A DNA stretch of 64,000 nucleotides from Phytohabitans houttuyneae (GTDB lineage Bacteria; Actinomycetota; Actinomycetes; Mycobacteriales; Micromonosporaceae), in assembly GCF_011764425.1 (NCBI RefSeq), contig NZ_BLPF01000001.1:4889001-4953000 (forward strand), given 5' to 3'. Position numbers and translations under genes: made by a program. Below the pieces are notes generated by a model. The model ran no database searches. It had not been told where the DNA came from and saw nothing but the letters and a program-made list of their open reading frames with translations. Positions 23,942 to 34,433 of the stretch are shown here, piece by piece (position 1 is the first letter of the stretch; each line of letters begins with the position of its first letter).

Positions 23942-24360
23942 TAACCGGCCCCCGGGCGGTCGGGCAACTGTGGCGATTCGGTCAGCCCGGGCGCTCCGAG
24001 CGGTTACCCGGTGGTATGCACGCAGCGCGTAAACCGGCACTTCGGCCTTGCCGTCGCTGCCCGGTCGGGCAATGGTCGGCACTGCTGCGGCCTCGCCATC
24101 CTTGGCGAGGACCCCATCACGGTCCGGCGCGAGCGAGCAGGACGAGTTGGACAGCGCACGCGCTCACAATCTGTAACCGATCGAGAACGCATTGCTATCA
24201 ATGGCTACTTTCGCCCGAATGCGGGGACGGTTAGGGCGAACCTGGCCTTTCTCTTTGACACGGGTCGTGATGGAATCTCGGGGGTTCGACCCGACCGGGT
24301 CGGTCGATGAGCGGCGCCCAGTTTGACGGGCGGGGCGCTGGAGTTGGAGAGGGCGGTGAC
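23942..24360. other. Gene-free promoter region between add and the conservon
   Basis: No convincing coding frame. Contains a perfect 8-bp hairpin (cctcgcca 24091-24098 with tggcgagg 24103-24110), a ttgaca hexamer at 24255-24260 that may be a -35 box, and the dyad gacccg-ac-cgggtc at 24288-24301 just before the kinase gene. These probably serve the conservon promoter. Confidence 0.45.
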
Positions 24361-27300
24361 GTGAGTAATCAGCCGAAGACGGCGGACTCTGTCATGTCGC
24401 GTCTCCGTCGGCCGCTGGGCCGGCTTCGAGATCTTCCGATCTGGTCCAAGCTCGGCCTGATCATGATCGTGCCCACGCTGGCGACGATCGGTGTCGGCAC
24501 CAACGGCCTGATCGAGCACCTCGGCACGGCAAACGACGCTGACCGCGCGCGCACCCTGTCGCAGCTGTCGGAGGCGTCGGGCGCTCTCGTGCACAACCTG
24601 CAAAACGAGCGGGCCGCCGCGGCGATGCTGCTCGGCGTCAAGCCCACCGACCAGGCGGGCAAGCAGAGGTACAACGACGCGTACACGAAGGTGCAGCCGA
24701 CGGTCGACGAGACCAAGCGGCCGTACCAGCAGGAGCGCAACGCCCTCAACGCCGACGACCTCCCGGTCAACTTCCGCGACGCGCTCACCGCGATCGACCA
24801 GCGCCTCGCCGACCTGCCCGCGATCCGCAGCCAGGTGACCAACGGCAAGCTCCAGCTCAGCCAGGCCAGCAACAACTACACGACGCTGCTCAGCGGCCTG
24901 ATCTCGGTGCGTGACTCCTCCGCACAGCTCGCCGGTGACACCACGCTCGGTGACCAGATGCGGGCCACGGCGGCCCTCGCCCGCTTCAAGGAGTTCATCT
25001 CCCAGGAGCGGATCGTCGGCCTCAACATCCTCAACACCAATGCGTTCACGCCCAACCTGCGCCGGCAGTACATCGAGACGCAGACCGGGCAGGAGCAGGC
25101 CGTCCAGGCGTTCAAGGCGGTCGCGACCCGCGCCGACGCCGAGCTGTTCGACCAGACGGTCGCCGGCTCCGACCTGCGCAAGGTCGAGGGCTACGCGGGC
25201 TACCTGCAGAGCCGCGACGGCACCGACATCAGCGACCGCGAGTTCGACGCGGCCGACTGGGACGGCGCGCTGCTGGCCAAGGCCGACCTGGTCCGCACGG
25301 TCGAGGTCGACGTCGACGCCGAGGTCGTCGACCGCGCCACGACGCTGCGCGACCAGGAGTACGAGCAGCTGCTCGTCGAGGCCGGCGTCCTGCTCGGCGT
25401 CCTCCTGCTCGCCATCCTCTTCGCCTGGGCGGTCGCCCGCTCGATGGCCCGGTCGCTGCGCGAGCTGCGGCATGGCGCCCTCTCCGTCGCGCAGTACGGG
25501 CTCCCACAGGCGGTCGCCCGGCTCCGTGACCCGGCGCTGTCCAGCCAGCTCTCGCCGGTGCAGGTGGCCAGCCAGATCGCCGAGCCGCTGCCCGTGCGCA
25601 GCAAGGACGAGTTCGGGCAGGTCACCGAGGCGTTCAACGCGGTCCACCTCGAGGCCGTCCGCACCGCGGCCGAGCAGGCCGCGCTGCGCGCCTCCGTCGC
25701 GACGATGTTCGTCAACCTGGCCCGCCGTTCGCAGATCCTGGTCGACCGGCTGATCGGTCACCTCGACCGGCTGGAGCGTGGCGAGGAAGACCCGGACCGC
25801 CTGGCCGAGCTCTTCCAGCTCGACCACCTGGCCACCCGGATGCGCCGTAACGACGAAAACCTCCTGGTCCTCGCCGGCGCCGACTCCACCCGCGTGCAGC
25901 GCGAGCCGGCAGCCCTGATCGACGTGCTGCGGGCCGCCCAGTCCGAGGTCGAGCACTACACGCGCATCGAGTTCGGCGTGATCGACCGCGACATCGAGGT
26001 CGCTTCCAGCGCGGTCAACGACCTGGTCCACCTGGTCGCCGAGCTGTTCGACAACGCCACGGCGTTCTCGCCGCCCGACTCGCACGTCATGGTCGAGGCG
26101 CGCCGGGTCGGCGACCGCGCCGTGCTGTACGTCGAGGACCGCGGCATCGGCATCACGCCCGACCAGATGCACGACCTCAACGAGCGGCTGGCCACGCCGC
26201 CCCTGGTCGACGTCGCCGTCTCCCGGATGATGGGCCTTGTCGTGGTCGCGCGGCTGGCCGCACGGCACGGCGTCAAGGTCGAGCTGCGGCCGGCCACCGA
26301 GCGCGGCACCGTCGCCGACGTGACGCTGCCGACACCGGTGCTCGTGCCGCGGGCACTGTCCGGGCGCAACGAGCCGGGCGCGTCGCCGTTCCAGCCGACC
26401 ATGGTCCCGCCGGCCGCCGCGCCGCCGCTGGCCACCCCGCCACCGCCGCCGGTGCAGCGCCCGCCCGTGGGCGCGACGCCGCTGGCCCTGGAGAGCGGCC
26501 CCGTCTCGGCGCCTCCCGGACGCCCGTTCGACCCCACGCCGCTCAACGGCGGTCGCATGGTCGGCCCGCCCGGCCCGCCCCAGCGGTCGATGCCGGCCTG
26601 GTCCGACCTCACGGGCGCGACCTCGGCGCCGCCCAACGGCGGTGCCAACGGCTCGGGCACCATGTTCAGCCCGCGCACCCCGACCAACGGCCAGCCGAAC
26701 GACCCGCTGCCGCAGCGGCGTGGCACCGACCACTGGACCGTCGAGGGCGAGGTGACCGGCAGCGGTCCCGCGCCGAACATCCCGCGCCAGATCCCGGCCA
26801 ACCCGGAGACCCAGACGCGCAGCGGTGGCTTCCCGCCGGTACCGCCGGTGTCCGCCCCGCCCGTGCCGCCGGTCTCCGCTCCGCCGATCCCGCCGCAGGC
26901 CCAGGTGCCGCCGCCCGCGTCCGCGCCGCCCGCACCGCCGGCGGCTCCGCACGCACCGGCCGTGCCGCCGGTCATGCCGGCCTCGTCGGCACCACCGGCC
27001 TGGCCGCCGGTCAGCGCGCCGGAGACGGGCCCGACCACGGCTCCGTCGGTGCCGGAAAAGCTGGCTGCCGCGCTCGACATGACGGCCGAGCTGCCCAAGG
27101 TCAACAACCGCAACGAGTCCGGTGCCAGGCCGGGCGCTCCAGCGCCCGCGCCGCAGGCGGAGACCGCGTCCGAGGCGGCGGCCACCGGCCCCACGACCGC
27201 CGCGACGGCCGGACCGGCAGCCAAGCCACGGTTCGCCGACGAGACCATGGAGCTGCCGATCTTCCGCGAGCTGGAGTCGGCCTGGTTCCGCACCCGGCGT

Positions 27301-27966
27301 GGAGCGCCAGAGGAGCCGCGCACGCCCGCACCAAACGGCGACTTCGTCACCGTCGACGCCGCACGACCGGCCGCCCCCGCCCCGCAGGGCGCACCGGCGG
27401 CCAGCGCGCCCGCCACACCGGTTCCGGCCGCCGCATCCCGCCCCTCCATCCCGTCGCCCGCAGGTGGCAACAACGGCAATGGAGCGGTGCGCCGGGAGCC
27501 GGCGCAGAGGGAGCCGGCGCAGAGGGAGCCGGTGGGCGGCTGGCAGACCGCCGCCGACGACGGCTGGCGTGCCGCGGCCAGCGCCGCTGCCGAGCGGCCG
27601 GTCTCCGAGACCACCCAGGCCGGGCTCCCCAAGCGGGTGCCGATGGCCCAGCTCGTGCCCGGCGGAGTGGAGAAGGGCGCCGCTGCCGTGCAGCGTCGTA
27701 CACCAGAGGCGGTGCGCGGTCTGCTGTCCGCGTACCACCGGGGGGTGCAGCGTGGTCGCACGCACCCCAAGGACGACCAGCCGACTTTGGGGGAGACTCC
27801 AAAGGGCGGTTTGGGCCCGCGGCCGGGAGCGGCCAGAAGGAGCATGAGGGATGACAACAACGCAGGATCTCGGCTGGCTACTGGCCAACTTCGCCGATCG
27901 GGTGCCAGGCGTCGCCCACGCGGTCGCGGTGTCCGCCGATGGTCTGCTGCTGGCAGCGTCGCGTGA
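24361..27966 (+). CDS. Conservon sensor histidine kinase with NIT domain (CvnA-like)
   Basis: Membrane receptor of a conservon, about 1,200 residues. Order: membrane segment 1 ([20 protein letters not shown], about 31-50), an extracellular nitrate/sulfonate-sensing-type (NIT) domain ([17 protein letters not shown]), membrane segment 2 (about 338-362), HAMP-like linker, and an HATPase domain with N-box [12 protein letters not shown] and G-box VEDRGIGI. Next come a Pro-rich linker of about 350 residues and a conserved tail with SAWF (about 971) and [14 protein letters not shown] (about 1087). I chose GTG 24361 after ggagaggg over ATG 24307. The frame reads to 27966, but adding one base in the gggccc run at 27813-27818 gives a shorter end KEHEG whose TGA overlaps the next ATG, probably the true end. 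Confidence 0.85.
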
Positions 27967-28255
27967 TCTCCCGCGCGACCGGGCAGACCAGCTCGCGGCG
28001 ATCGCGTCAGGGCTCGTCAGCCTCACACAGGGCGCGGCGCGGTGCTTCGAAGGCGGCGCGGTGCTTCAGACAGTGGTCGAAATGGACAACGGCTTCCTGT
28101 TCCTGATGTCGATCTCGGACGGCTCCTCCTTTGCCGTGCTGGCCGCGCGCAGCTGCGACGTCGGTCAGGTCGGCTACGAGATGGCGCTGCTCGTCGACCG
28201 CGTGGGCGACGCTCTGACGCCGGCTCCGCGCACGACCGCGGGCATGTTGGGTTGA
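27851..28255 (+). CDS. Roadblock/LC7-domain protein (CvnB-like)
   Basis: A 134-residue roadblock/LC7 protein, the second conservon member. It contains [20 protein letters not shown] and [20 protein letters not shown], the typical dimeric roadblock fold, and [19 protein letters not shown]. In conservons it acts as a scaffold or GAP-like partner linking the sensor kinase to the small GTPase. The ATG probably overlaps the true kinase stop as ATGA. Confidence 0.9.
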
Positions 28256-28340
28256 GCGCACAAGCGGTCCGACATAGGGGGCCGCATGTGCACGGATTCT
28301 GTTCGAGATTTCTTCGGGTCGACAGGAGGGGGTGAACGGC

Positions 28341-28721
28341 ATGATGGCGGAACGCGATGAGCCGACCGGCGCGCTGGTCCGGCCGTACGCCGTTACCCGT
28401 GGCCGGACCCGTCCCAGGCTTGAAATCGCGCTTGAAGCGCTCGTGGAGACCACCGTGCGAGGACGGTCTGCGGGCGCGACCAAGGGCGGTCAGGGCCGGG
28501 AGCATCAATACATCGCCGCGCTCTGTGACGGCCGGCTGCAGTCGCTTGCGGAGATCGCCGCGCGGATGCAGCTCCCGCTCGGGGTGGCGCGGGTCCTCAT
28601 CGCCGACATGGCCGCCGACGGCCTGCTGGCGGTGTACGAGCCGACGTCCCTCGACGACGCCAACGACGCGGTGGGCACTGAACTGCTGGAGAGGGTGCTG
28701 AGTGGACTTCGCAGGCTCTGA
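28341..28721 (+). CDS. DUF742 protein (CvnC-like)
   Basis: A 126-residue DUF742 protein, third conservon member. The family sequence VRPYAVTRGRTRPRLEIALE is followed by a winged-helix-like part (LQSLAEIAARMQLPLGVARV then LIADMAADGLLAVY). Start ATG 28341 is set by aggagg at 28324-28329; GTG 28332 would be too close to that site. It overlaps the GTPase gene by 20 bases. Confidence 0.88.
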   Translation: MMAERDEPTGALVRPYAVTRGRTRPRLEIALEALVETTVRGRSAGATKGGQGREHQYIAALCDGRLQSLAEIAARMQLPLGVARVLIADMAADGLLAVYEPTSLDDANDAVGTELLERVLSGLRRL

Positions 28722-29313
28722 TATGTCGCAACGCCCGCCGATGACGGGGCGCGTGACGTCGGCGAAGATCGTCATCGCCGGTGGGTTCGGCGTAGGTAAG
28801 ACGACGCTGGTCGGCTCGGTCTCCGAGATCACGCCGCTGACCACCGAGGCGATCATGGCGTCGGCCGGTGTCGGCGTCGACGACACCCGGCAGGTGCCGG
28901 GTAAGACGACCACCACCGTGGCCATGGACTTCGGCCGCATCTCGATCGACCGCGACCTGATCCTGTACCTGTTCGGCACGCCTGGCCAGACCCGGTTCTG
29001 GTTCATGTGGGACGAGCTGGTGCGGGGCGCCATCGGTGCGGTCGTGCTCGTGGACACGCGTCGACTCGCCGACTGCTTCGCGGCGATCGACTTCTTCGAG
29101 CACCGCCGGCTGCCGTACCTGGTCGCCATCAACTGCTTCGACGGCATGCAGTACCACGACCCGCAGGACGTGCGCGACGCGCTCGCCATCTCCAGCGAGA
29201 TCCCCGTGGTCAGCTGCGACGCCCGCAACCGCGAGTCCACAAAGCACGTTCTCATCTCCCTGGTGGAGTACGTGCTGAGCATGCGCCGCTCCCGGGCGGT
29301 CGCACCCGCCTGA
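28702..29313 (+). CDS. Conservon small GTPase (CvnD-like)
   Basis: A 203-residue Ras/Arf-like GTP-binding protein, fourth conservon member. Motifs: P-loop GGFGVGKTT, G3-equivalent LFGTPGQTRFWFMW and AINCFDG in the G4 position, where the usual NKxD is replaced by N-C-F-D as in other conservon GTPases. Start GTG 28702 overlaps DUF742. The complex receives signals from the sensor kinase in a GPCR-like arrangement; in Streptomyces conservons influence development and secondary metabolism. No cvnE cytochrome P450 follows. Confidence 0.9.
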   Translation: MDFAGSDMSQRPPMTGRVTSAKIVIAGGFGVGKTTLVGSVSEITPLTTEAIMASAGVGVDDTRQVPGKTTTTVAMDFGRISIDRDLILYLFGTPGQTRFWFMWDELVRGAIGAVVLVDTRRLADCFAAIDFFEHRRLPYLVAINCFDGMQYHDPQDVRDALAISSEIPVVSCDARNRESTKHVLISLVEYVLSMRRSRAVAPA

Positions 29314-29407
29314 CGGGCTCGTAACACCTCGCCGCCGGCGGGCAGTAGCCCGTCGGCGGCTGCATGCTGCCACCGTTCGCGAGCCGCACCCTCCACGATG
29401 CACAGAC

Positions 29408-29441
29408 AAAAGCGCCGAGCCCGCGAGGGCCCGGCGCTTTT
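29408..29441. terminator. Bidirectional terminator between conservon and IS110-like gene
   Basis: aaaagcgccgagccc (29408-29422) pairs with gggcccggcgctttt (29427-29441) around gcga, with one mismatch. A-run and T-run on opposite sides make it a rho-independent terminator in both directions, serving the GTPase gene (plus) and the large minus-strand gene. Confidence 0.88.
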
Positions 29442-29453
29442 ACGTGTCCAGCG

Positions 29454-32216
29454 TCAGGAGCGGTAACCGGCCGAGCGGTACTCGTCTTCGCGGTCGACCG
29501 AGTCGCGGCTGAAGTCCCAGCCGCCGGCCGACTCACGACCCGGGCGACCGCCGACGGCGTAGCCGCCGATCTCCTGCCCACGGCGCCAGCCGCGGAAGTA
29601 GCCGGTGGTGTGCGCGGCGATGCTCTGCGCGTCGCGGACGATGCGCAGCGGGCGCTCCTCGCGGGGAGGCAGGGCGGAGCCGGGCACCAGGTTGGCCTGG
29701 GGCACGCGGCGGGGCAGGCCGGAGGTCGTCTCGGCGCCTACAGAGGGCGTCGCGGCCTGTGACGCGGCCCGCCAGCCGGTGTCGGCGGACGAGGTCCAGT
29801 CGAGCTTGTTTTCGTCTTCCGGGTGACCGACGAACCAGGCCGAGCGGGTCTCCGCGAAGATCAGCAGGTCGCCGTCGCCCTCCTCGGCCACCGGGACGGC
29901 GCTGCGCTCGACCGCGCGGCGCGAGCGGGCCGTGCGGGCGCCACGGTCGCTCGCCTCGGCGTCGACAAGGCGGAGCGACGGGGTGTCCAGCGCGGTCATG
30001 CCGCTGAGCGGACGGTCGTCGAGCGCGCGGTCGGACAGCGGCGGCGGCTCCACCAGGCGCAGCATCGGCGGCTCCTGGGGAAGGTCGTCCGCCTGCCACG
30101 GCGGCGTCACCCGACCGTCCTTAGCGGCCGGCTGAGCGGGCCGATCGAGCTCGCTGTATCCCGAGTAGGGTCGGTCACCGTTTGCCCGCTGGTGTGTCCC
30201 TCCGCGGGCCGCAGGCTCGGTCTCCGTGCGCGGCATCTCCGCGCGCTGCCGGGCGGCCGGCTCGGAACGGGCCGGAGGCTCGGCGTCCAGACGGGACCGG
30301 GACGGCTCGGAGTCAAAGCGGGCGCGGTCGTTGTCGGACGAGTTGACCAGGGGCCAAGCGGCGCGAGAGCCGGGCTCGGGCGCGTGTCGTGGCAAAGGCA
30401 CACTCAAATCCGTAGCACCAAAACCACTCTGAGTGGGCGCGCCACCCTGAGTCGCCGCCGGAACGTCCTGCCTGGTGGTCGGGCGGGGCGGGATCGGCGT
30501 AGGGCGCTGGCGCTCGGCGCGCGCGTTGTTGATCGCGGCCGTCGTGAGCGTGGCGCGGAACGGCTCCCCGCTGTCGGCCGGCGCTATCCCACGCTGGCTC
30601 GGCACCGCCGCGGCGGGCGCGATCGGCGTGATGCCGGGCGGTGGGGGCGGCGGCGCGGAGACCGGCCGGTTGCTCACCGGCTCGGGGGTGCGCGGCGGCT
30701 CCATGCGGGGCGGCTCGGGCGCGCGCGGCGGCTCGGGCCGGGACAGCGGCAACGCGATCTGGGCGGTGTCGGTCATGCCGCCGCTGCCGTAGAGCGTCGG
30801 GGTCGCGGGCCGGGCCGGCGGAGCCGACGAGCGGATCGGCAGCGGGGTCGGGGCGCTGATCGCGGCCGGCGCGACCGGCGGGCGGCTGGCCGGGGGCGGC
30901 GCGACGGGCGGGCGCACGACCGGCTGGGCCGAGGCGGCCGGCGCGATCGGCGGCGCGGAAGCGGGCGCGACCGGGGAAACCGAGGCCGCCGCGGCAGCGG
31001 GCCGGGCCGGGGGCTCGGCGTGGCGACGGCCGGTGTCTCCACCGCGCGCGGCGGCGGGCCGGTTGACCGGCGGGGGTGCGACCGGCGGCCGCGAGACCGG
31101 CGGGGGTGCCACGGGCGGCGTCGTCACCGCGTGCGGGGTCGCTGGACCGGCGCTGGCGGCTGCGGGCTCCGGACGGGCCCGGCGCCCGACACGGGTCGGC
31201 GCGGGCTCCTCGGCCGGCGGGCGGACCGCGTGCAGGCCGGTGCTCGGGGGAGCGGACTGCGCCGAAGCGACCGCGGCCGCGCGGCGCAACGTGCTTCGCC
31301 GGCCCGTGGGGGTGGCGGCCGGAGGCGCGGTCAGGCGGGCGCTGAGCGTGGAGATGAGGGCATCGCAGCCGAGGTCGCAGGCGCGCACGGCGGCGACCGC
31401 CTGCCGCACGGTCTCGGAGATGGCCGGGACCAGCGCTTTGCTCGTGCCGCCGCGGCGGGGGGTCTCCGCGATCGCCACGCGCAGCGCGGTGATCTTGTCG
31501 GAGACCGTCTCGGCGTCGGCCACGCCCTCGGCCACGAGCTGGCCGATCACCGCGTCGGTGGCGGAGGCGGACTCGCGCCCACGGCTGCTGACGCTGCCAT
31601 TGAGGAGGCTGGGCTCCGGCAGGGCGTCGAGGACCGCGAGCGAGACGGGCTCGGCCGGGTCAGGGTAGGCGCGCAGCGCTGCCGGGTAGAGCTCGCGGAG
31701 CACCTCGCGCAGCGCGACAGCGGCGGAGAGCCGGCCATTGCAGAGGGCGGCGTGCGCGGCGAGCACCGGCTTGTACGACAAGAGGTCGCGCGGCACGGGC
31801 AAGGCGACGGCGGAGAGCGCACCGGCCTGCAGAGCGCGGGCGAGACCGACCGCGCGCCGCTCGGCGGCGGGCGACTCCATCTCCTCCACCGATTCGTCAT
31901 CGGCAAAGCGCTCTGCGTAATCGTCGACCGCGTCGTCATCGGCGATGGCGAGCGGGCGCCCGGCTGCGGTGAGGAGCGACGTGACCAGGTGGTCATCGCT
32001 GTCCGCGGCGATCGCCACGCCGGTCGGCCCGCTTGACCGCTCCACGAGCAGCGCACCCAGCTGGGCATAGCCCGCCGGATCGTCGCTTACCTCGCAGACG
32101 TCGAGCAGCCGCCCCGCGTCGTCGACCACGGCGACTGTCAGACGCGACTCGGCCGAGGCCGCTTGCGCTGTCTGATCCGCCGACGCCAGACCGCAGTACA
32201 CGCGCACGAGCGCCAC
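29454..32216 (-). CDS. IS110-transposase-like N-domain fused to a conservon-kinase-like tail
   Basis: A 920-residue protein of unknown function. Residues 1-230 follow the IS110 transposase layout: a RuvC-like strand pair (LTVAVVDDAGRLLDVCEVSD), DPAGYAQLGALL, TGVAIAADSDDHLVTSLLTA, then helices and LYPAALRAYPDPAEPVSLAV before LPEPSLL, which resembles the IS110 C-terminal domain lead-in. The expected acidic catalytic positions are not acidic (GLAS for GIDVS, AIAAD for AIEAT). Residues about 320-780 are low-complexity Pro/Ala-rich. The tail (about 784-880) has LLIFAETRSAWF, DTGWRAAS and GLPRRVPQANLVPG, matching the convergent conservon kinase tail. Start GTG 32216. It is probably cotranscribed with the acidic protein upstream. 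I infer a domesticated, non-mobile protein working with the conservon. Confidence 0.7.
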   Translation of the reverse strand: MALVRVYCGLASADQTAQAASAESRLTVAVVDDAGRLLDVCEVSDDPAGYAQLGALLVERSSGPTGVAIAADSDDHLVTSLLTAAGRPLAIADDDAVDDYAERFADDESVEEMESPAAERRAVGLARALQAGALSAVALPVPRDLLSYKPVLAAHAALCNGRLSAAVALREVLRELYPAALRAYPDPAEPVSLAVLDALPEPSLLNGSVSSRGRESASATDAVIGQLVAEGVADAETVSDKITALRVAIAETPRRGGTSKALVPAISETVRQAVAAVRACDLGCDALISTLSARLTAPPAATPTGRRSTLRRAAAVASAQSAPPSTGLHAVRPPAEEPAPTRVGRRARPEPAAASAGPATPHAVTTPPVAPPPVSRPPVAPPPVNRPAAARGGDTGRRHAEPPARPAAAAASVSPVAPASAPPIAPAASAQPVVRPPVAPPPASRPPVAPAAISAPTPLPIRSSAPPARPATPTLYGSGGMTDTAQIALPLSRPEPPRAPEPPRMEPPRTPEPVSNRPVSAPPPPPPGITPIAPAAAVPSQRGIAPADSGEPFRATLTTAAINNARAERQRPTPIPPRPTTRQDVPAATQGGAPTQSGFGATDLSVPLPRHAPEPGSRAAWPLVNSSDNDRARFDSEPSRSRLDAEPPARSEPAARQRAEMPRTETEPAARGGTHQRANGDRPYSGYSELDRPAQPAAKDGRVTPPWQADDLPQEPPMLRLVEPPPLSDRALDDRPLSGMTALDTPSLRLVDAEASDRGARTARSRRAVERSAVPVAEEGDGDLLIFAETRSAWFVGHPEDENKLDWTSSADTGWRAASQAATPSVGAETTSGLPRRVPQANLVPGSALPPREERPLRIVRDAQSIAAHTTGYFRGWRRGQEIGGYAVGGRPGRESAGGWDFSRDSVDREDEYRSAGYRS

Positions 32217-32277
32217 GGCGTCGTCCTCCTCCCCGGACTTGAGCGTGTGCCAAGGACTGATGCTCCCTGGTGAGGGG

Positions 32278-33267
32278 TCAGTCGCGCCAGTCCACAGCGG
32301 CAGAGATCTTGCCGATAATCGTGCGCCAGCCGAGACTTGCCTGTTGTGCCCCGATTTTCTTCAACCGGCGGCGACCCCTGAACGCACCGAGACCGCCACC
32401 TGCGGCGGAACGAAGTGCCTCGTCAAGGTCATCAAGCGGTGACCCGGTGGACAGGGCGGTAAGGACCGGTGTGAGGCGCAGAGCGTACGACAGGTCGCGC
32501 GCCGCCTCACCCGCCTCGATCAGCAGGTTGAAGTCCCAGGTGTCGTGCCCACCGCGCAGGTTTTCCACGACGAGATCCAGCTCGTACGAATCTTCGTCCG
32601 AAGGCGCCACGTCGGCCGGCTGGATCCGCTCGACCAGCTCGGCCCACCCGTCCACCTGGGCGAGGTCGTTCGGCGCGCCGGAGCGCACGAAGGTCACCAG
32701 CGACTCGGGGCTCTTGAACAGCAGCAGGCGCCCCCGGTGGCTGAGGAAGACCGGAACCTCCTCGGCCCGCTCCTCCTCCTCTTCCTCTTCTTCCTCGTCC
32801 TCGAAGTCTTCGGCCGACGGCTCGTCCGAGTCTTCGTCGCGCGCGTGCTTGCCGCGGCGCTGGAACTCCTCGGTGCGGTCGTCGTCCTCCTCTTCGTCCT
32901 CGTCGCCGGGGAAGTCGTCGTCGAGGATGACCACGGTCTCGTCGTCGTCATCCGTCACCGCGTGCTTGGCCTTCGCGGCGAACGGGTCGTCGTCGTCCCG
33001 GTCGCCGATCTCGGTCGGCGTGAGCGAGGTGGAGAGCCGGTACGCCCGGAGCGTGTAGCCCACGCCCGAAGGCAGGGCGATCTCGACTGGATCGATCTTC
33101 GTGTCGGCCCACAGCGACGACGAGCCGCCCGACGCGGCGGCCGGCGAAGTCTCCTCGTCCTCGTCGTCGTCTTCCTCTTCGAGCTCGGCCTCGTCGAGAT
33201 CTTCGTCGATCTCAAGCTCGGGCTCGGGCTTGTCGGCGTCCGGCCGGTTGGGCGACTGGCGGGCCAC
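32278..33267 (-). CDS. Highly acidic conserved hypothetical protein
   Basis: A 329-residue protein starting GTG 33267. The N-terminal third and residues about 115-175 are dominated by Asp/Glu (for example ELEEEDDDEDEE and EDFEDEEEEEEEEER). Between and after them lie ordered segments (IDPVEIALPSGVGYTLRAYR, VPVFLSHRGRLLLFKSPESL, DLVVENLRGGHDTWDFNLLI) and a basic C-terminus (FRGRRRLKKIGAQ). Long acidic runs suggest binding to a basic surface or DNA mimicry, which is inference only. It lies 61 bases upstream of the IS110-like gene on the same strand. I recognise no named family. Confidence 0.7.
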   Translation of the reverse strand: MARQSPNRPDADKPEPELEIDEDLDEAELEEEDDDEDEETSPAAASGGSSSLWADTKIDPVEIALPSGVGYTLRAYRLSTSLTPTEIGDRDDDDPFAAKAKHAVTDDDDETVVILDDDFPGDEDEEEDDDRTEEFQRRGKHARDEDSDEPSAEDFEDEEEEEEEEERAEEVPVFLSHRGRLLLFKSPESLVTFVRSGAPNDLAQVDGWAELVERIQPADVAPSDEDSYELDLVVENLRGGHDTWDFNLLIEAGEAARDLSYALRLTPVLTALSTGSPLDDLDEALRSAAGGGLGAFRGRRRLKKIGAQQASLGWRTIIGKISAAVDWRD

Positions 33268-33396
33268 GCTGACCTCCGTGTGGGCTCAGGTCCGGCACCG
33301 GCCCGATGGCTGTCGGGTCGGCGACTCTGCGCACACAGTAGTAGCCCATCCTGCGCGATGAACGCCCGCACCCCGTTGGAGAAGCACTCGCATATC

Positions 33397-33411
33397 GGTA
33401 GCCTTACTACC
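33397..33411 (+). promoter_or_regulatory. Dyad ahead of padR, possible operator
   Basis: ggtag-cctta-ctacc is a perfect 5-bp inverted repeat ending one base before the padR ATG at 33413. PadR regulators usually bind such dyads over their own promoters; autoregulation is inferred. Confidence 0.5.
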
Positions 33412-33412
33412 T

Positions 33413-33754
33413 ATGAAGTCGCAAGCCCTGCACGGACACCTCGATGCGCTGCTGCTTTCCGTGCTGGAGGGCGGTGCGCTGCACGGTTACGCGATCATCG
33501 AAGCGCTCAAGTCGCGCAGCGGCGGCACGCTCAACCTACCCACCGGCACCATCTATCCCGCGCTGCGCCGGCTCGAGCGCGCCGGGCACGTGGAGAGCGA
33601 GTGGAGCACCGTAAATGGGCGGGAGCGCCGGACCTACCGGCTGACCGGCTCCGGCCACCGCGCGCTCGCCGGGGAGCGGGCCAGCTGGCAGGAGCTCAGC
33701 ACGACGGTGAGCCGCTTTCTCGGCGCGGAGGGCCCGCCACCGGCTACGACGTGA
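33413..33754 (+). CDS. PadR-family transcriptional regulator
   Basis: A 113-residue winged-helix regulator of the short PadR class. The typical sequence is LHGYAIIEALKSRSGGTLNL, PTGTIYPALRRLERAGHVES and RRTYRLTGSGHRAL. It probably represses its own promoter through the dyad ending one base upstream. It converges on, and overlaps by 11 bases, the permease-prefix protein that often accompanies PadR genes. Confidence 0.9.
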   Translation: MKSQALHGHLDALLLSVLEGGALHGYAIIEALKSRSGGTLNLPTGTIYPALRRLERAGHVESEWSTVNGRERRTYRLTGSGHRALAGERASWQELSTTVSRFLGAEGPPPATT

Positions 33755-34433
33755 GCGTGAGCCGCTTGGGTGCCGCGGTCACGCAGGTGACCGCCGAGTG
33801 CACCAGCCAGGCGTACGCCGCGGCCACCACCAGCCCGCCCGCCACCATCGGCGGCCAGGTGAGCGCCGCGTCCCACAGCGAGAGCGACCAGAGGTAGATG
33901 ACGGTGCCGGCGAGCCAGGTCAGGCCGACGATCGAGAGCGTGACAAGCCCGATCGCCCGGACGGTCACGCGACCGGTGTGGCGTCCGCGCCGGGCGGCCC
34001 AGGTCAGCCAGAGGTACACGGCCATCGCCAGACCTGCCCACACGTAGCCGAGGTAGTCCTGCGCCCGGGAGATCAGCAGGTAAACCTCGGGCGGGTGGGG
34101 ACCGGTCGTCGAGGTGGACCACGGCGAGCCCCGCCACATGAAGTCGGCCAGCGTCGTGAAGAGCACCGGGACCAGCACCATCTTGAGCGCCAGCCGCCGG
34201 GCCGCGCCGAGCCCCAGCTCGGACTGGTAGGCCGGGGCCAACGACCGGACCTCGCCGAACTCGGCCACCGCGAGCCGCTCAGCCTCCGTGCGGGTCAGCC
34301 CGTCCTCCTGGTACGCCTCCGCCGCGTCGGCCAGCCCGTGCCGCGCCTCGCGCAGCATGTCGCCCTTGAGCCGGCCGGGGCCGGTGAGGACACGGTCCAG
34401 CGTCCGGACGTACTCGTCGATCGGGGCGTGCAT
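33744..34433 (-). CDS. Permease prefix domain / HAAS-type membrane protein
   Basis: A 229-residue protein with an N-terminal helical permease-prefix (HAAS-like) domain of about 70 residues (IDEYVRTLDRVLTGPGRLKG, AERLAVAEFGEV, LAPAYQSEL) and four membrane segments. This domain is typically encoded next to PadR regulators and may bind or regulate membrane partners. Start ATG 34433. It is convergent with padR rather than downstream of it, which is unusual for the pair. Confidence 0.75.
   Translation of the reverse strand: MHAPIDEYVRTLDRVLTGPGRLKGDMLREARHGLADAAEAYQEDGLTRTEAERLAVAEFGEVRSLAPAYQSELGLGAARRLALKMVLVPVLFTTLADFMWRGSPWSTSTTGPHPPEVYLLISRAQDYLGYVWAGLAMAVYLWLTWAARRGRHTGRVTVRAIGLVTLSIVGLTWLAGTVIYLWSLSLWDAALTWPPMVAGGLVVAAAYAWLVHSAVTCVTAAPKRLTLTS

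Follow-up and report, generated by a model that had tools for sequence, protein, structure and literature searches.

What does a protein that begins like a transposase and ends like a sensor kinase do beside a conservon? The question is raised by a gene of Phytohabitans houttuyneae located in a 64,000-nucleotide stretch of contig NZ_BLPF01000001.1 (positions 4,889,001 to 4,953,000, the whole of which is called the window below), where it converges with a conservon operon (CvnABCD) whose kinase, CvnA, carries a similar tail. We use IST as a label for this IS110-derived, conservon-tailed protein, and L and G numbers for the loci and genomes of this analysis. A preliminary description, made from the sequence alone, had noticed both halves of the protein and had proposed that a domesticated transposase was drawn into a conservon-linked complex through a common partner reading the tail. 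Our analyses confirm the observation itself and partly support its interpretation, and genomic context now gives the common partner a name, the candidate being an MglB-type roadblock protein whose gene lies directly behind IST in 14 of 42 loci. On balance, IST is a domesticated IS110 fragment joined to a kinase tail, and it is probably a soluble, kinase-free counterpart of CvnA serving as a scaffold that docks a roadblock protein.

The homology of the IST tail to conservon-kinase tails is confirmed by profiles built in both directions from 43 IST loci, the window and five loci from its genus included, which were read out as stretches of 19 kb. A hidden Markov model (HMM) of 39 IST tails matched 33 of 37 kinase open reading frames (ORFs) with E values from 3.5e-12 to 7.7e-19 (3.6e-16 for the kinase in the window); the four without a match are fragments from L046-L048 that a change of frame separates from their C-terminus, and three fragments from these loci were matched. 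Further strong matches of the profiles are split-frame pieces of IST or CvnA from L046-L048. The reciprocal HMM of 33 kinase tails found the IST tail at E <= 1.6e-10 in 43/43 loci, in two of them as split-frame pieces, the window protein scoring 2.6e-13. The alignment with the tail of the convergent kinase that had first been noticed is borne out by these values, and chance similarity is answered by the clean separation of both profiles from 7639 ORFs, the next match beyond IST and kinase pieces being at 0.0063 for the IST-tail HMM and the next outside IST and kinases at 0.13 for the kinase-tail HMM. The blocks common to the two kinds of tail read L.IF...SAWF, W...D.GW..A, T..GLP.R.P...LVPG and Y..G..RGR/Q, and SAWF, W25, D30, W33, T48, N60, L61, F92 and G94 are invariant in 19/19 rows of the tail alignment. 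The LPxR motif is present in 43/43 IST loci, two split-frame loci being read from their own piece. Beyond the tail, an extension of the form GGRPGRE.AGGWDFSRD is common to derived lineages and short or absent in deep ones. Most deep lineages that keep a roadblock gene end soon after the tail, and L088 holds part of the extension. The tail had been taken as undescribed, which needs correction: a survey of 2014 already described an LPxR motif in a C-terminal extension of these kinases and left its role open (PMC4316618; papers are cited throughout for those parts of their text considered here). For MfpE, a C-terminal domain that is longer in Actinobacteria and without notable sequence conservation has been described, and the part of that paper considered does not mention an IST-type tail (PMC13015309).

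The derivation of the N-domain from IS110 transposases, with most of the active site lost, is likewise confirmed at the level of the family. Taken alone, the window protein matches PF01548 (DEDD_Tnp_IS110) weakly and under the curated cut-off (E 0.088 for the whole protein, 0.012 for residues 1-300), and 15 of 29 IST family members match it at E <= 1, the best at 1.8e-10. When the IST N-domain alignment was compared with four IS110 transposases, which were gathered because they are similar to the window protein and are not a blind set, hhalign returned a probability of 99.3 and an E value of 3.7e-20 over 201 columns. Among 18120 ORFs the IST N-domain profile found IST proteins and the same four transposases (E 2.5e-37 to 3.7e-16), with nothing else below 0.91, and the four scored 59-129 bits, the best of 1000 shuffles reaching 12 bits. 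The domain, first given as 230 residues, extends to about residue 300 and includes long helices after the RuvC-like part. The reported lack of acidic catalytic residues stands for three of the four DEDD positions: where the four IS110 proteins align with D, E, D and D, the window has A, D, A and R, so that one acidic position is kept as a conservative change. In seven IST rows, the first position is A or T throughout and the second is D except for an L in one row, while D occurs at the third only in L066 and at the fourth only in L072, L065 being gapped at both. In IS110 transposases, the Transposase_20 domain (PF02371) carries the catalytic serine; it was found in none of the five whole IST proteins scanned and in 3/3 IS110 proteins. 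AlphaFold models of the N-domain are weak (mean pLDDT 57.5 and 62.4), and Foldseek nevertheless placed IS110 structures at the head of the results, ISCro4 and IS621 chains filling the top ten for the first model (E 5.7e-3 to 4.4e-2) and ISCro4 chains taking the top two places (E 8.7e-4 and 2.7e-3) for the second. By sequence, the best match of IST in the PDB is again ISCro4, though at an E value of 0.28, and a second look at the N-domain (VIA) did not single out IS110 and gave Nop-like matches at noise level. A search of the genus with residues 1-310 also brought up a 428-amino-acid ORF present in six copies in one congener, G001 (L050:2410-3693 (+), L013-L017). Both IS110 Pfam domains score well above cut-off in one of these copies and in two further family-search matches, and the six-copy ORF is an intact-looking IS110 element.

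The distribution and constraint of IST support the earlier proposal that the transposase fragment has been domesticated. A match at E <= 1e-3 is found in 60/61 sampled genomes of the family, the Micromonosporaceae, and it is the only one in 55 of these 60; G007, G021, G046, G059 and G062 each hold one more weak match, and the two of these five that were scanned are both IS110. The best family matches that were left unopened lie at E <= 8e-49, an IS110 protein (L075) reaching 5.9e-14 in the same search. A pattern scan of named genomes yielded 214 relatives, of which the best 80 come from Micromonospora, Verrucosispora, Salinispora, Plantactinospora, Asanoa, Phytohabitans and one "Micromonosporaceae bacterium"; among these 80, the closest by IST gene are Phytohabitans flavus and P. 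suffuscus, at 94% over the N-domain. Seven comparisons within or near the genus put the dN/dS of the N-domain at 0.10-0.21; for the tail and the linker, with five comparisons each, the values are 0.09-0.24 and 0.23-0.40, the linker lying above both N-domain and tail in all five. At the level of the class, tail matches (E <= 1e-4) occur in 76/197 genomes, three of them in the family; of 38 non-family tail-bearing ORFs opened, 36 are conservon kinases and the other 2 are truncated at contig ends, and no IST was met outside the family among these 38.

The gene that follows IST provides the clue to what the tail may bind. Of the 42 loci that extend 500 bp or more past the IST end, 14 (L065-L074, L077-L079 and L088) have a roadblock/LC7 (MglB-type) gene directly behind IST on the same strand, the profile match starting 4-131 bp past the last IST sense codon, and Pfam Robl_LC7 was confirmed for the IST-linked roadblocks of L065, L070 and L088. 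None of these 14 loci shows a CvnC or CvnD match (E <= 1e-3) on the IST strand, although 36 loci in the set do yield CvnC and CvnD; in 8 of the 14 the two lie on the opposite strand, and in the other 6 neither lies within the stretch. A same-strand roadblock is also the next gene after 51/51 tail-bearing ORFs whose kinase domain is intact (33 from the family and 18 from elsewhere), against a background of 27/1090 other ORFs of at least 300 amino acids (overlapping frames counted), and it follows two of the three split kinase pieces. Because a roadblock comes after all intact tailed kinases and also after IST where CvnC, CvnD and kinase are missing from the strand, the tail is most simply read as a dock for the roadblock. 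From the literature, CvnA9 interacts with CvnB9 and CvnC9 in two-hybrid assays (as told in PMC8510531), and MfpD, a CvnB homologue, is a GTPase-activating protein (GAP) for MfpB (as told in PMC13343842).

In the mechanism that we propose, the IS110-like half would form a stable, probably dimeric platform, the long linker would give reach, and the LPxR tail would dock an MglB-type roadblock acting as GAP or adaptor of a CvnD-type GTPase. Ancestrally, this roadblock would have been IST's own, encoded directly behind it and presumably on one transcript; in the window lineage the own roadblock gene is gone, and CvnB of the convergent conservon would be the likely partner. IST may then feed this conservon's GTPase switch as a second input that needs no kinase, and would either share the switch or compete with CvnA for it. 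Nop5, in which an inactive RuvC-like domain and a coiled coil recruit fibrillarin (PMC12045711), offers a parallel showing that a dead RuvC plus coiled-coil layout can serve as a scaffold.

The strongest rival to docking is a direct role of the tail on the GTPase itself, with the LPxR arginine acting as a finger in trans within the roadblock-GTPase complex and IST being a catalytic co-activator instead of a scaffold. The retention of LPxR in every IST locus would fit such a role, but the authors of the published suggestion are themselves cautious in the part of their text considered, the invariant residues of the other tail blocks are as conserved as LPxR and go beyond what a single arginine needs, and, within the stretches read, none of the 14 IST-roadblock pairs is accompanied by a same-strand gene for a CvnD-like GTPase; we therefore consider the arginine finger unlikely. 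It is more doubtful still that the tail is a localization signal (to a pole, a septum or a membrane patch) common to kinases and IST, with the roadblock linkage reflecting one regulatory site: the tail does end long flexible linkers in both types of protein, but the tail-bearing ORFs opened are conservon kinases and IST only, and include no unrelated localized proteins.

An own roadblock gene behind IST also appears to be the older arrangement. In a tree of the 43 IST and four IS110 N-domains, midpoint-rooted on the IS110 branch and accompanied by tool warnings of long branches and unsettled bootstrap, IST forms one clade (100/100). The roadblock accompanies IST in every deep lineage and is missing only in an inner group of 30 rows (support 97/88), inside which L088 retains it. 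Since the deep lineages carry the roadblock and L088 keeps it inside the inner group, the two-gene unit of IST and roadblock is probably ancestral, and the roadblock was probably lost more than once. A hint as to the circumstances is that the own roadblock is missing only where a conservon adjoins: 6/6 loci without a conservon in the stretch keep it, and among those with a conservon 8 keep and 28 lack it (Fisher p 5.7e-4, uncorrected for related genomes). Some roadblock gene is close by in each of the 42 loci, and for each of the 28 without their own it is the CvnB of a convergent conservon, located 1.1-3.2 kb past the IST end on the opposite strand. When 21 genomes were searched with a profile of the IST-type roadblock, the two positive controls gave 236 and 201 bits and the 19 others at most 110; in 17 of these 19 genomes without an IST roadblock, the best match is the CvnB beside IST. 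This holds for the genome of the window, where CvnB reaches 108.3 bits (G000:C1:4916863-4917216, or 27863-28216 of the window). Eight deep-lineage genomes also hold further tail-bearing ORFs, only some of which were opened, and CvnD relatives, the best CvnD match being 76-82% identical in seven and, in the eighth (G054), 65% identical as one piece and 79-80% as two split pieces.

Several observations weigh against the proposed docking and partner change. Most loci, 28 of 42 and the window among them, lack a roadblock directly behind IST, and the named genomes reinforce this: of the loci from the best 80 of 214 relatives, the tail is present in 62, and in 60 of them the sequence continues for at least 800 bp past it; none of the 60 has a same-strand roadblock, 57 having a convergent CvnB and 3 ending within 2 kb. 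The absence of a nearby conservon is bounded by the 19 kb read, and G018 has a tail-bearing ORF and a CvnD match about 14-16 kb off. IST tails without an own roadblock do not resemble CvnA any more closely, their kinase-tail HMM scores being 40-53 bits as compared with 44-58 bits where the roadblock is kept. Two other ORFs of the same genome, both confirmed as kinases, slightly exceed the neighboring CvnA in tail score (69.1 and 65.4 versus 59.7 bits); the neighbor is thus not the closest in tail, and its adjacency does not indicate that it was the source of the IST tail. In 2 of the 19 genomes (G001 and G005), both with CvnB in two pieces, the best match to the IST-type roadblock is another roadblock, and the standing of CvnB as best remaining roadblock may reflect plain descent and not partnership. 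Finally, the weak N-domain models superpose poorly on IS110 (TM 0.2-0.3, rmsd 17-22 A), so that the dimer is no more than an analogy.

The frequent absence of a roadblock behind IST, together with tails that did not become more CvnA-like after its loss, would suit the idea that in the window lineage the module is a relic whose IS110-like half serves an unrelated job. The tail is too strongly constrained for this to be probable, its dN/dS staying at 0.09-0.24 where that of the linker, over the same five comparisons, is 0.23-0.40, and LPxR persisting in all 43 loci, and we give this idea little credence, slightly less than localization. That IST still binds a bridge-like RNA as IS110 does, coupling RNA to the GTPase switch, is very improbable given that Transposase_20 is missing from all IST proteins scanned and present in the IS110 ones, that the flanking gaps of 61 and 140 bp leave little room for a bridge RNA, that an Rfam scan of 28000-34000 gave no match (whether Rfam includes bridge RNAs being unverified) and, as a weak point, that residues 1-295 carry a net charge of -17 in the window, two IS110 proteins having -9 and -8 and two IST proteins 0 and +1.

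A scaffold docking a roadblock places IST between several known systems. With IS110 transposases (PF01548 plus PF02371, as in IS621 and ISCro4), it shares the RuvC-like N-domain and helices of the 201 aligned columns and the ISCro4/IS621 structures heading both Foldseek lists, but the window protein has A-D-A-R, no Transposase_20 and a replaced C-terminus, and IST occurs as one match per genome in 55/60 cases, whereas IS110 is mobile and multicopy. With CvnA it has in common the proline-rich linker, the homologous LPxR tail and, in deep lineages, the roadblock gene directly downstream, but the window IST lacks the NIT, HAMP and HATPase domains by Pfam and any stretch resembling a membrane helix (highest 19-residue Kyte-Doolittle mean 1.44), and the 14 roadblock-keeping loci lack the same-strand CvnC and CvnD of a kinase locus. 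A roadblock gene directly downstream, as in the conservon operon, occurs in 14/42 IST loci and is absent behind IST in the window. Like CvnF and CvnE, IST would be a non-kinase protein accompanying a conservon; of these two, CvnF is a kinase-binding GAF protein and CvnE a cytochrome P450 (PMC13343842), whereas IST bears the kinase's own tail. An orphan clade of actinobacterial MglB proteins without neighboring GTPase or conservon flank has been described (PMC4316618), and some IST-linked roadblocks would resemble them; a term search of the main text of that paper found no occurrence of transposase or Micromonospora.

Table 1. Coordinates of IST, its parts and its neighbors in the window
Feature	Position	Strand	Basis
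IST gene, 920 aa, GTG start	29454..32216	minus	ORF; one full-length match in own genome
RuvC-like (IS110 DEDD) part of N-domain, about residues 4-135, active site mostly lost	31812..32207	minus	alignment, profiles, models, fold searches
Long-helix (coiled-coil) part of IS110-like domain, about residues 143-296	31329..31790	minus	IS110 alignment; predicted helices 143-176, 260/262-296
Pro/Ala-rich linker, residues 301-782, 21% Pro, 18% Ala	29871..31316	minus	composition, dN/dS
Conservon-kinase-type tail, residues 783-884: DLLIF..SAWF, GWRAA, GLPRRVPQANLVPG, YFRGWRRGQ	29565..29870	minus	reciprocal HMMs, alignment
LPRR, the LPxR motif within the IST tail	29706..29717	minus	sequence position
C-terminal extension beyond the tail, residues 885-920, GGRPGRE.AGGWDFSRD	29457..29564	minus	sequence comparison
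CvnA, conservon sensor kinase (NIT, HAMP, HATPase_c)	24307..27966	plus	Pfam
CvnA tail, homologous to IST tail, ending YHRGVQRGR	27250..27759	plus	HMMs; end counted by hand
CvnB, roadblock/LC7 protein, proposed present IST partner	27851..28255	plus	Pfam Robl_LC7 7.7e-23
CvnC (DUF742)	28332..28721	plus	Pfam 5.8e-30
CvnD, small GTPase	28702..29313	plus	Pfam P-loop families
GC-rich inverted repeat with an A run and a T run at its sides, in the CvnD-IST gap	29409..29442	none	read in sequence
Acidic protein upstream of IST, synteny conserved	32278..33267	minus	weak SatS similarity; synteny

The layout of the locus (Table 1), in a host genome of 11.3 Mb, leaves 140 bp between IST and CvnD, where the inverted repeat probably serves both genes as a shared terminator, and 61 bp between IST and the upstream gene on the same strand. 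The protein encoded by this upstream gene has a conserved C-terminal half and precedes IST in most loci read; it matched no Pfam family, and its weak NCBIfam match to the mycobacterial chaperone SatS (E 2.1e-10) reaches 40 bits where the model cut-off is 700 and may stem from composition. The CvnA frame of the window overruns 116 bp into cvnB (27851-27966), the counterpart in L045 stopping at the cvnB start; the last window CvnA residues look out of frame, so cvnA may have a frameshift or sequence error close to its end. Among congeners, IST is in two frames in L047 and L048, CvnB in two pieces in L046 and L047, and CvnA in pieces in L046-L048, which may be GC-rich sequence errors or true breaks. 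The host genome encodes two more tailed conservon kinases (L004:5287-8550 (-) and L005:4969-7731 (-)), each with a roadblock match beside it, and has seven CvnD-like GTPase matches, that of the window counted in.

Signaling from the kinase to the roadblock and GTPase in conservons is largely open, according to the part of PMC13343842 considered. IST naturally parts the tail from the kinase, and 14 loci pair the tail with a roadblock gene alone; because the tail there stands without a kinase beside a lone roadblock, its partner is testable with two small soluble proteins. New here are the presence of IST in 60/61 genomes of the family, the same-strand roadblock without CvnC and CvnD, the probably basal position of that roadblock with its later loss, the neighboring CvnB as the roadblock most similar to it in 17 of 19 genomes that lack it, and the restriction of the tail to conservon kinases among the uncut ORFs opened outside the family. 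IST further provides a well-conserved example of an IS110 transposase seemingly turned signaling part, of which no earlier case was found in searches of open-licence PMC papers, as judged partly by titles and the beginnings of abstracts. More tentatively, the LPxR tail may be a portable plug for roadblock-GTPase switches that was moved, in Micromonospora and its relatives, from a membrane kinase onto a dead IS110 recombinase, giving rise to a new kinase-free class of input for Ras-like GTPases that would have used its own roadblock first and that of a neighboring conservon later.

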